From Flavobacteriales bacterium (GTDB taxonomy: Bacteria > Bacteroidota > Bacteroidia > Flavobacteriales > TMED113): a DNA stretch of 55,858 nt. The position numbers and the translations under genes were made by a program. The notes below the pieces were generated by a model, which worked only from the letters and a program-made list of their open reading frames with translations, searched no databases and was not told the origin of the DNA. Location of the stretch: assembly GCA_002863085.1 (NCBI GenBank), contig PKDT01000008.1:1-55858 (forward strand), written 5' to 3'. This document shows positions 17,485-28,437 of the stretch, piece by piece (positions within the stretch are counted from its first letter, which is position 1; every line of letters starts with the position of its first letter).

Positions 17485-18228
17485 ATGAGACACAGAAAAG
17501 CCAATAACAATTTGAGGAGAAAAACAGGCCACAGAAAATCTATGCTTGCGAATATGTCTTGTTCTCTGATAATGCATAAAAGAATTAAAACAACATTAGC
17601 TAAGGCAAAAGTTTTAAAAAGGTTTGTTGAGCCAATCATTACAAAATCAAAAAATGATTCAACTCACAATAGGAGAATTTCTTTCAGATACCTAAGACAA
17701 AAAGATGCAGTTACGGAATTATTTTCTACTGTTTCAAACAAGGTTGCTGACCGACCAGGTGGATACACACGAATAATTAAACTTGGTAACAGATTAGGCG
17801 ACGCTGCAGAAATGTGCTTTATCGAACTTGTTGATTTTAATGATACTTACAATGTTAAAACAGTCAAAAAGAAACGAACAAGAAGGTCTAAAAAAAATGA
17901 ACCTGATGTGAATAGTGATAATGAAGTTCAAGATGTAAAAGCTGATGAAACAAAAGTCGATGAGTCAAAAACAGAACTGACAGAAGCAGAAGAATCTAAA
18001 GTTGAAGAGACAAAAGCAGAAGAGACAAAAGCAGAAGAGCCAAAAGCAGAAGAGCCAAAAGTTGAAGAGACTAAAGTAGAAGAGCCAAAAGTAGAAGAGC
18101 CAAAAGTTGAAGAGACTAAAGTTGAAGAGACTAAAGTAGAACCAAAAGTTGAAGAGACTAAAGTAGAAGAAGATAAAGCTGAGCCAACTAAAAATAATAC
18201 TGATACCAAAGGTTCATCAGAAAAATAA
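17485..18228 (+). CDS. rplQ: 50S ribosomal protein L17 with long acidic C-terminal repeat tail
   Basis: L17 sits near the tunnel exit. The core is residues 1 to about 120: [24 protein letters not shown], then [25 protein letters not shown] and [27 protein letters not shown]. The protein then runs to 247 residues, about twice the E. coli length. A short basic patch ([13 protein letters not shown]) is followed by about 110 residues dominated by Glu, Lys, Val, Thr and Pro, in five-residue steps of [10 protein letters not shown] or AEETK type. This tail is probably disordered and surface exposed. Acidic extensions on L17 are common in Bacteroidota; a repeat this regular is notable. It closes the ribosomal cluster. 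Confidence 0.96.
18001..18180 (+). repeat. 15-bp in-frame tandem repeat encoding the L17 tail
   Basis: About twelve imperfect copies of a 15-bp unit, roughly GTAGAAGAGACTAAA or GTAGAAGAGCCAAAA, lie head to tail in frame inside rplQ. Several neighbouring copies are nearly identical at the DNA level, which suggests recent expansion by slippage. One copy has lost a Glu-Thr pair (EPK instead of EETK) but the frame is kept. Confidence 0.85.
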
Positions 18229-24922: not shown

Positions 24923-27682
24923 TTACTTGTCAATTATATAAAAACCTTCATTTCCTTTATTTTGATACAGCGGCATTAACAAGTATCCAGAAATAGGAGA
25001 GCATATTGGTCCACTTTTGTCGTGAGCTATAATTTCATTTTTTAAAATTTTTTGAAAGTTAAACATGTTTGGATTCATTAAAAAATCATCATTACTAGAA
25101 ATTTTATGAATATATTTAAGTTTATAATCACCTAAACTTGGTTCAGAAAATTTTTTCATTTTTTCAATTTTATCAATTACCTCCTGAGGTATATCCTTTG
25201 TTTTTATAAACTTTCTCTTTTCTAAAATCTTCCAAATTCCAGCTAGGTGATTATTTACAGATACAGGGTCTCCAATGGCACCTCCTTCAAAAACTATCAC
25301 ATTTACTCCATTCTTATTATAATATTCAGCAAACGAGCCTTTTATTTTATTTAAAAGATTATTTACAGTTGGTACTTTGAGACAGTTTGCAATTTTTGCT
25401 TCTGATTCATTATTTACAATAGTAAAAACTCCGTTTGAAGAGGATGTATTATGAAGATCAACAATTAATATATCATTTTTGTTTTTTGCAGTGATTATTT
25501 TGTCAATTAAACCCTTTAATACTAAAAGTTCATTTTCTTCAGAGTTGTATTTACTTTTAGAAATAGTTTTATTCCATAATCTGTTTAAGTCTTCATCAAT
25601 ATATCTTCTATTTTTTGAGAGTGCTTTTAAATTTCCTATCAAGCCAACAACTGTTCCCTCAATTTGAGTAGCATTTTCTTTTACGTTTTTAAAAAATTTT
25701 TTTAAGGCAATGACTCCCGAATCTTCATTTCCATGAATAGCTGAAACAAATATTACAGTTTTCTTATTATTACTATGAATATTACCAATTATTCTTTCAT
25801 AGTTATCACCAACATCCTTTTCGAATTTATTCTCCTTAATTTCATATTGTATTAGTTTTTGTTTTTGAATAATTCCGATATACAACCCATCCTCAACGAC
25901 TGGCAAAATTTCAATTTTTTCTTGTCTCATTATTCTTAAAGCATGTCCTATGGTTTTATATGGTTTTATTGTAGTTAGTTTTTTTTTCATTAATTCCTTG
26001 ATAACTATTTTATTTTTTTTTGAGGTGTAATTTTTATCATTGAAGATATCTTTGTCTAGTATTCCAGAAATATGTTTTTTTTCATTAACTACAACCATAA
26101 AATCTTTTTTATTCCAGCTGTTTATTTGGTATGCAAGTTCAAAAATGTCATTTTCATTTATTGAGTATATATCTCTTTCCATACATTCCTCTACGAGTAG
26201 ATTTGAGGGATTGTTGATGACAACGCAATTCTTCGGAGTGTTCCAGTTATGTACAGGTATATTATTTTTTTGATTTTCAATTATATGGGATGTAATTGTT
26301 GTGAGTGTATTTTGCTTAGAATATTTAGAATTCAGTGAGTCATATGAGTCAATTATCCATCTTGCTCCATTTTGACGACTGATTGTACGATCTTTTATTA
26401 TTTTAAGATACTTGTTGATGTCCTCTGGATTAATTTTAACATGAGACAGACCGATTGCAGCTTTTGGAATAAGTTCGTTTAAAATTAATTTTCTTGCATC
26501 AACCCTTTTACCAAACCATCTGAAAGTTGCATCAATACCTTGTTGTGCAGCAGAGTAAAAATTTATCCTAGCATCATCAAACTTCATTTGCTTTTCAAAA
26601 TCTTCACTGTAATTTTCTTTGTAGAACATCATTAGTCCTAACCAGAAGGAAGAATTTGCAACTTCATCAACAATTGACGGACCAGATGGTAACATTCTAT
26701 TCTCAATTCTAATGCTTGGTTTATTCTTATAAATACCATAACATGGTCGATTCCATCTGTAAACGGTTGAGTTATGTAGTGTTAAAGCATTTAGGTTTGG
26801 GAGATTTTGATTTTCAATTGAGTAATTTTTTTGGGTCAGATTTTTTAGCAGTATTTTGTATCTTGTAATATCTTCTTTATATATTTCAATTAATGATTTC
26901 TTAAGCCACTGATTTCCAAATGTTACTCTTGGCAAACTTTCTAAGTGATAATTGCCTACGATTCTAGTGTCTGTTGCTTGTTGAAATACAGCAATTCTTG
27001 TTTCGTTCCAAAGTCTTTTTCCAAATAACATAGGTGAATTGACACATGTTGATAAAACTGGACCAGCAATTAATTGTGAAATGTTATACATTTTGTGAAA
27101 TATTTCGTGGTCGATTTGTAAATGAAATTGAAATCCTGTGTTACAGCCTTCAATGAGCGGTGAATCATGCTGAAATATTAATTCATCAATTCCCGATATC
27201 CTTATTTTATATTTTTTTCCTCTTGAAGCACTAATTGAATCACATAAATCAAAATATCTTCTGTTGTTAGTTATATTCTCATACCTCAAATCGAATTTTC
27301 GAACTGTTGGAAGCATGCCAGTCAAAATCAACTCAGAATCGAAATTTTTAGATACGCTTCTAGCAATTAATATTTTGTCCAACAATACCTTTTCCAACTT
27401 CTTAAATGAATTGGAATTAAGATCTATGGGGTCAATGTTGAGTTCCATATTAAATTTTGCTATTTCTGTCACAAAACCTTCATCACTCAGTTTTTCTACA
27501 ATCTTGTCGTTGATCGGGTTTGGTCTAAGATTGTCGTCAACTAAACAAAATTCTTGTTCTGCTCCAATTCTTTGCTTTTTTTCAAGAATATTTTTTGAAA
27601 TTAGTCTTTCCAGCAGTTCAATGTCATTAGTCAGCTTGTTAATGAATTTATGAGATTGAATATTTTTGTTGGGTTTAATCAT
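24923..27682 (-). CDS. GCS2-type carboxylate-amine ligase / CBS pair / aspartoacylase-type deacylase fusion
   Basis: A 919-residue three-part cytoplasmic protein. Residues 1-460 resemble glutamate-cysteine ligase family 2 (GCS2): IGAEQEFCLVD (39-49), FNMELNIDP, a FQFHLQI segment, and SIRIENRMLPSGPS, which fit the ATP-dependent carboxylate-amine ligase fold. Residues 500-615 form two CBS motifs (ILPVVEDGLYIGII in the second), which usually bind adenine nucleotides. Residues 644-919 match the succinylglutamate desuccinylase/aspartoacylase zinc hydrolases: H650 and E653 in HGNE, DLNR at 698-701, the H744 zinc ligand in DLHNTSS, catalytic E799 in VFEGG, and the C-terminal ISGYLLMPLYQNKG. The ligase and the hydrolase would make and cleave amide-linked amino acids, with CBS as an energy sensor; that pairing is inference. 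Substrates are unknown. Confidence 0.85.
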   Translation of the reverse strand: MIKPNKNIQSHKFINKLTNDIELLERLISKNILEKKQRIGAEQEFCLVDDNLRPNPINDKIVEKLSDEGFVTEIAKFNMELNIDPIDLNSNSFKKLEKVLLDKILIARSVSKNFDSELILTGMLPTVRKFDLRYENITNNRRYFDLCDSISASRGKKYKIRISGIDELIFQHDSPLIEGCNTGFQFHLQIDHEIFHKMYNISQLIAGPVLSTCVNSPMLFGKRLWNETRIAVFQQATDTRIVGNYHLESLPRVTFGNQWLKKSLIEIYKEDITRYKILLKNLTQKNYSIENQNLPNLNALTLHNSTVYRWNRPCYGIYKNKPSIRIENRMLPSGPSIVDEVANSSFWLGLMMFYKENYSEDFEKQMKFDDARINFYSAAQQGIDATFRWFGKRVDARKLILNELIPKAAIGLSHVKINPEDINKYLKIIKDRTISRQNGARWIIDSYDSLNSKYSKQNTLTTITSHIIENQKNNIPVHNWNTPKNCVVINNPSNLLVEECMERDIYSINENDIFELAYQINSWNKKDFMVVVNEKKHISGILDKDIFNDKNYTSKKNKIVIKELMKKKLTTIKPYKTIGHALRIMRQEKIEILPVVEDGLYIGIIQKQKLIQYEIKENKFEKDVGDNYERIIGNIHSNNKKTVIFVSAIHGNEDSGVIALKKFFKNVKENATQIEGTVVGLIGNLKALSKNRRYIDEDLNRLWNKTISKSKYNSEENELLVLKGLIDKIITAKNKNDILIVDLHNTSSSNGVFTIVNNESEAKIANCLKVPTVNNLLNKIKGSFAEYYNKNGVNVIVFEGGAIGDPVSVNNHLAGIWKILEKRKFIKTKDIPQEVIDKIEKMKKFSEPSLGDYKLKYIHKISSNDDFLMNPNMFNFQKILKNEIIAHDKSGPICSPISGYLLMPLYQNKGNEGFYIIDK

Positions 27683-27699: not shown

Positions 27700-28437
27700 T
27701 TATTTATCATGTTTTATCATTCTTGATATAATTTCAAACTTGTAATCACAATTTAGATAGTTGTAATTATTCTCTTTTAAATGAAGAATATACAATCCAT
27801 TTATTTTAGCATCGTAATACTTTTCAAGGATGTATCTATACATCGTAAGTTGAAGTTCGTATTTATTGTAACTACAATCTCCAATATCTAGTGTGGGTTC
27901 TTTTGTTCCGTTTCGATAACTAATTTTTTTTATTTTCTCATTAGTTTTCCAGTCGACTAATGAAATAATGTTTTTTGGCTTATTATATATCAAAAGATCT
28001 ATCGTTCCTGCTAATTTTAGTGTTTCAGAAAATATTTTAACCTCAGGAAAAATTAAATTGTTTTTAAAAATATCACAATCGTTTAGAAATTTAATTGCTT
28101 GCTTTGATTTTAAATTTAGTTCATCAACTCTTTTTTCATTATCGGTAAAATTTCTTGAATTAAAATTATTTATATATTTCTCAATCTCATAATGAATTAA
28201 TGTTCCATCATTTCTTCTTTTTTCCCAATCTTTCAAAATCTCACTAGTTGTTAGACCTTTAAATTTACCATAATTCGTTAATTTTTTAGCAACTTTTATC
28301 TCATCAAACTTTTCAAAAAAGTCTCCAATGAATTCCGTAACACTTCGAAATTCAATATTTGAATTTAGTAATGAGTATTTGTGAGAATTTTCATCTAATG
28401 AAATTAATTTATCTTTTTCAATAATAGTTTGATACAT
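27700..28437 (-). CDS. PD-(D/E)XK nuclease family protein
   Basis: A 245-residue protein with a RecB/Cas4-like nuclease core. The motif order is PEVKIF, then GTIDLLIY (Asp), then ISLVDWKTNEKI (D-x-K), then YELQLTMYRYILEKYY, whose Gln and Tyr fit motif IV of this superfamily. The N-terminus has an EFRSVTEFIGDFFEKFDE segment and an HYEIEKYIN helix. Metal-dependent nuclease activity is the likely role; the substrate is unknown. It lies 17 bp upstream of the ligase-deacylase fusion on the same strand, which may mean co-transcription. There are no cas, restriction or toxin genes nearby. Confidence 0.72.
   Translation of the reverse strand: MYQTIIEKDKLISLDENSHKYSLLNSNIEFRSVTEFIGDFFEKFDEIKVAKKLTNYGKFKGLTTSEILKDWEKRRNDGTLIHYEIEKYINNFNSRNFTDNEKRVDELNLKSKQAIKFLNDCDIFKNNLIFPEVKIFSETLKLAGTIDLLIYNKPKNIISLVDWKTNEKIKKISYRNGTKEPTLDIGDCSYNKYELQLTMYRYILEKYYDAKINGLYILHLKENNYNYLNCDYKFEIISRMIKHDK

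Follow-up and report, generated by a model that had tools for sequence, protein, structure and literature searches.

The best functional analogue of the protein described here would be glutathionylspermidine synthetase/amidase, in which a single polypeptide makes and breaks the same amide, and the product of which is known. Its ATP-grasp and CHAP amidase folds are, however, unrelated to the domains of our protein, in which a Pfam scan detected neither an ATP-grasp synthetase nor a CHAP amidase domain, and it has no CBS domains. Aspartoacylase-type zinc enzymes cut N-acyl-amino acids, the alpha-carboxylate of which is held by the DLNR motif. The C-terminal domain of our protein shares with the aspartoacylase/succinylglutamate desuccinylase family (PF24827) the HxxE, DLNR and DLH motifs, the catalytic glutamate, the C-terminal segment and the fold, but constitutes a subfamily of its own and, unlike those enzymes, is joined to a ligase. 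The N-terminal domain resembles the YbdK/GCS2 ligases (PF04107, TIGR02050) in fold (TM 0.75), in the GhExE signature and in invariant acidic and arginine residues, but it is longer (~480 residues vs ~370), is barely recognisable to the family models, and is supplemented with a CBS pair and a deacylase partner. In the part of Iyer et al. 2008 (PMC2588565) that we cite, GhExE is given as the Mg2+/ATP signature on strand 1 of the ligase superfamily. The same part describes a similar ligase/thiol-peptidase neighbourhood, where a superfamily ligase lies by a GATase-like gene as in six of the ten relatives of our gene examined (see below); it mentions neither the CBS pair nor the AspA deacylase that characterize the fused family. 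No description of the three-part architecture was found in the literature searched, consistent with the first-pass annotation, to which no characterised protein of this kind was known, and the split pair may appear among the amidoligases of Iyer et al. 2009 (doi 10.1039/b917682a). The domain architecture is new; the enzyme families are known.

The window, i.e. the whole stretch of 55,858 nucleotides that was analysed, contains the fused gene with the following features:

24923-27682, minus strand: fused open reading frame of 919 aa, GCS2-like ligase + CBS pair + AstE/AspA-type deacylase
26228-27649, minus strand: GCS2 (YbdK-type) carboxylate-amine ligase domain, residues 12-485, assigned from Pfam scores of relatives, fold and invariant residues
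27551-27565, minus strand: GhExE signature GAEQE, residues 40-44, with G40, E42 and E44 invariant
25823-26215, minus strand: CBS pair, residues 490-620, assigned from Pfam, split relatives and AcuB-like fold
25856-25876, minus strand: degenerate nucleotide motif GIIQKQK of CBS2, residues 603-609
24926-25804, minus strand: AstE/AspA-type zinc deacylase domain, residues 627-919, with the C-terminal segment MPLYQ..G.EGFYI
25724-25735, minus strand: HGNE, residues 650-653, zinc ligands H650 and E653, kept in every aligned row
25580-25591, minus strand: DLNR, residues 698-701, the family's substrate carboxylate-binding motif, D[LM]NR in every aligned row
25451-25459, minus strand: DLH, residues 742-744, zinc ligand H744, from the alignment
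25286-25288, minus strand: E799, presumed catalytic glutamate, from the alignment

The three parts lie in a single frame, as the first-pass annotation had stated; this frame is on the minus strand and is free of internal stops, and the plus strand of the same interval is stop-rich. The fused form was found in 12/12 genomes of the source family, representing seven genera, at one common syntenic place, which shows that it is not an artefact. Fused relatives within the family are 58-69% identical, the gene order around the fused gene is kept across the family relatives compared, and those relatives that carry names are metagenome-assembled genomes of marine Flavobacteriales, TMED113 among them. 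The fused genes of two family members end at contig ends. Seventeen bases upstream of the fused gene lies a gene (27700-28437, minus strand) for a 245-aa PD-(D/E)XK nuclease-like protein, whose PDDEXK_1 match (E 9e-4) is under the cut-off and whose position is kept throughout the family.

The profile searches proposed in the first-pass annotation gave a mixed result: AstE_AspA_cat and one CBS motif scored above their cut-offs, whereas GCS2 remained below. Pfam did not detect GCS2 in the 919-aa protein, and identification of the ligase by NCBIfam likewise failed; the ligase domain alone reached 12.7 bits (E 0.083) against a cut-off of 21 bits, and scanning the complete source genome with GCS2 returned no match. 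Some GCS2 match was obtained with 11 of 17 ligase-domain homologues (best 1.6e-6), and homologues elsewhere in the phylum exceeded the cut-off at 22-37 bits, the best (2.3e-9) being from a genome of family f32, which we take to be Chlorobi-like, judging partly by its position in the phylum. The AlphaFold model of the fused protein (mean pLDDT 81.6, pTM 0.67) has stretches of poor confidence within the ligase domain, residues 215-248 in particular; the modelled domain matches YbdK (1r8g_A, E 9e-11, target TM 0.75) and also 1tt4, yeast glutamate-cysteine ligase 3ig5 and Francisella GshA 3nzt. Residues G40, E42, E44, E73, E80, Q185, H187, R312, E327 and R329 are invariant in an alignment of 20 diverse homologues from Bacteroidota, two actinobacteria and one haloarchaeon, so that the ligase active-site residues that were checked are not missing. 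GAEQE fits the GhExE signature. By a weak pairwise alignment, QFH 185-187 and ENR 327-329 may correspond to the strand-4 [HDQ]x[NH] and strand-6 Ex[RK]x2D motifs of the GCS2/YbdK ligases, with P332 at the x2D position and an invariant D339 close by. Alignment of the ligase domain to E. coli YbdK with hhalign gave weak, short matches, and of the sequence-profile searches of the PDB with four alignments two gave nothing meaningful and two were swamped by CBS. Taken together, the relatives above the GCS2 cut-off, the GAEQE signature and the YbdK-like fold show, by an indirect proof, that the ligase module claimed earlier is real; it is called GCS2-like through its relatives and fold rather than as a scored Pfam member.

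The deacylase was recognized directly: AstE_AspA_cat matched residues 641-802 with 72 bits (cut-off 25; E 6.3e-20), and in the AlphaFold model the domain folds like AstE 2bco and ASPA 2i3c. The zinc ligands, the DLNR motif and E799 were found exactly at the residues named in the first-pass annotation, which had described a complete zinc deacylase, and the catalytic sites of both enzymes are predicted to be intact. Scores are below the NCBIfam equivalog cut-offs for AstE (43.1 vs 305.65 bits) and for aspartoacylase (78.5 vs 180 bits). Near the active site fused deacylases have DLHNTSS..FEGGAI where split ones have DLHTTSS..FESGQH, a difference suggesting that acceptor specificity may have moved. 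In one relative (L018:8001-10772; L003/L018) an in-frame TGA, either natural or an assembly error, breaks the deacylase part of the fused gene.

An architecture survey, also suggested in the first-pass annotation, revealed that outside the source family, where the fusion is universal (see above), the two halves are separate genes. At all 13 loci examined elsewhere in the order, the deacylase gene comes immediately after a ~615-660-aa ligase+CBS gene. Among 395 sampled genomes of the phylum (171 genera), the ligase was present in 116 (43 genera) and the deacylase subfamily in 59. Fifty-six of the latter also had the ligase, and in 51 of these the deacylase came next after it on the same strand; the five genomes with both genes unlinked all belong to one family. 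The association was highly significant (Fisher p 1.7e-31, 395 genomes), although its strength is overstated by taking related genomes as independent. The order ligase then deacylase is constant, whereas the flanks of the unit vary by lineage (between PriA and ScpB; beside RF3; beside serine hydroxymethyltransferase). In the remaining three deacylase genomes, which lack a GCS2-like ligase, the neighbours of the deacylase are a MATCAP/QEGLA protein and an ATP-grasp ligase resembling glutathione synthetase; the subfamily is thus found repeatedly with amide ligases, and these are of two unrelated folds. The units deviating from the common arrangement are:

L056:5879-9786, L057:8407-12269, L058:8485-12395 and L163:2490-6358: AspA subfamily + ATP-grasp ligase + MATCAP/QEGLA metallopeptidase, no GCS2 ligase
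L109:6796-9368, L110:5318-7806 and L111:5864-8424: Chlorobi-like, GCS2 ligase without CBS domain, its frame overlapping or adjoining that of the divergent AstE/AspA protein which it precedes

The co-occurrence in 56 of 59 genomes, the adjacency in 51, the second ligase fold beside the deacylase in the other three and the divergent Chlorobi-like pair give good support to the view that ligase and deacylase are a real functional couple. Their side-by-side position in much of the phylum makes it very likely that both serve one small molecule. The ligase+CBS gene also occurs without an adjoining deacylase in a large group of other genomes, the two annotated actinobacterial homologues stand alone with no deacylase adjoining, and about half of the ligase-bearing genomes have no detectable deacylase of the subfamily (116 vs 56), which indicates that the ligase can work alone. 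At two loci (L090:3542-8556, L091:4869-9883) a single deacylase gene follows a tandem of two ligase+CBS genes that belong to different clades.

The fused clade was monophyletic in both the ligase and the deacylase tree (100/100), and both placed it beside genes of family f38 (ligase 97/92; deacylase, more weakly, 88/92). Origin of the fusion from a flavobacterial split pair is not favoured by this placement, and a single fusion of an f38-like operon would be the simplest account.

In six of the ten family relatives examined, the stop of the fused gene lies within or directly next to a class-I glutamine-amidotransferase (GATase) gene, which is broken in one of them:

L017:7315-8040, L018:10772-11503, L019:10723-11448, L020:10736-11467 and L021:10738-11463: class-I GATase gene
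L016:7072-7807: class-I GATase gene, broken

The best PDB match of the GATase was gamma-glutamyl peptidase 1 (3.6e-13), with GMP synthase (GuaA-type) subunits close behind. In the window, no GATase gene adjoins the stop of the fused gene, and elsewhere in the source genome there was only a weak match, within a frame the size of a GMP synthase. The GATase neighbour seen in some relatives tilts the balance towards a gamma-glutamyl product, which is thereby slightly better supported than the "osmolyte or storage dipeptide" of the first-pass annotation. Against this, GuaA-type GATases match almost as well, and the source genome has no such gene.

Going beyond the domains, residues, conservation and coupling observed, we infer ligase and amidase activities, a gamma-linkage, and a common substrate handled in opposite directions. 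The best reading, which we hold tentatively and at slightly less than an even chance, is that of a bifunctional gamma-glutamyl-type synthetase/amidase. With ATP, its N-terminal GCS2 domain would phosphorylate a carboxylate, most likely the gamma-carboxylate of glutamate, and would couple the resulting acyl phosphate to the amino group of an acceptor, a small amino acid. The AstE/AspA zinc domain would hydrolyse the same type of bond in an N-acyl-amino acid, whose free alpha-carboxylate would be held by the DLNR arginine, and would thereby set the level or the lifetime of the product. In the fused lineage the CBS pair would be a structural linker or a divergent regulator, and in many relatives two adjacent genes would perform the same job. 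Gamma-Glu-X is chemically close to N-succinyl-Glu, which AstE cuts, so it is plausible that both halves act on one bond in opposite directions.

Adjacency and fusion fit serial pathway steps equally well, and the chief rival, somewhat doubtful in our estimate, is serial biosynthesis: the AspA domain would deacylate a precursor, the GCS2 domain would ligate the freed amine, and fusion would channel the intermediate. Consecutive steps predict the adjacency, fusion and co-occurrence found, and the constant order of ligase then deacylase is in keeping with them; but no acetyl- or acyltransferase was common to the sampled neighbourhoods (among the annotated part of the neighbours), and the pairing of the deacylase subfamily with another ligase fold suits a match to the type of product better than a fixed pathway. 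We consider it unlikely that the ligase makes gamma-glutamylcysteine as a low-molecular-weight thiol or glutathione precursor. YbdK has gamma-glutamyl:cysteine ligase activity (Lehmann 2004, via the part of PMC2588565 cited here) and the GshA enzymes to which the domain is similar in fold belong to the same superfamily, but BshC of bacillithiol biosynthesis scored above the cut-off in 12/12 family genomes and no glutathione synthetase did so in the source genome, which disfavours glutathione or gamma-Glu-Cys as the housekeeping thiol. Still more improbable is that the GCS-fold domain is an ATP/ADP-using amide hydrolase like Dop, or a protein modifier. Dop is a ligase-fold enzyme that became a hydrolase (PMC7947786) and our domain has diverged from all GCS2 models, but every ligase-type residue that was checked is kept in homologues as distant as the actinobacterial ones, and the neighbouring ORFs, surveyed down to 80-90 aa, gave no sign of a small tag gene.

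A further rival is the control proposed in the first-pass annotation, in which the CBS pair would bind AMP/ATP and toggle the protein between ligase and deacylase according to energy state. Of the two CBS motifs described there, Pfam found one (residues 561-612, 41.5 bits, cut-off 24, 1.7e-10) and the first was below detection; the pair is nevertheless real, since split relatives score two strong CBS stretches and in the AlphaFold model the residues fold as a CBS pair like the AMP/ADP-binding AcuB. Fused proteins and most split relatives retain the pair, and 42/44 split relatives carry the canonical ribose/phosphate motif for nucleotides, G-h-x-[TS]-x-x-[DN], in one or both of their CBS motifs, so that such a switch may hold for the split systems. 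This nucleotide motif was found in 0/9 fused proteins: in GIIQKQK, Q606 and K609 replace T/S and D. Among fused proteins, CBS is moreover the module with the lowest conservation (mean identity 54%, compared with 56% for the deacylase and 72% for the ligase), and CBS domains are absent altogether from the Chlorobi-like pair. Loss of the motif and low conservation argue against energy sensing in the fused protein, which is not supported by the sequences, and an energy switch there appears improbable; binding of another ligand by the CBS pair would be compatible with the loss.

More tentatively than the synthetase/amidase assignment itself, we propose a self-contained make-and-break enzyme for an undescribed gamma-glutamyl or other acyl amino acid in marine Bacteroidota and Chlorobi, an old couple that would have been fused in one streamlined marine family with its nucleotide-sensing CBS motif swapped for other control. 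The ligase, present in 116/395 genomes and missed by the standard GCS2 model in the source genome, points to an undescribed metabolite system. Every sampled member of this family with ~1.3 Mb genomes keeps the fusion, thus the product is probably no luxury. The tight ligase/deacylase pairing offers a concrete hypothesis that is open to assay, and for nucleotide control a natural comparison is provided by those split relatives that have kept the CBS motif intact. Elsewhere in the window (17485-18228, plus strand) a ribosomal protein L17-like protein is encoded, which carries a long acidic tail made of repeated units resembling a ten-residue sequence.
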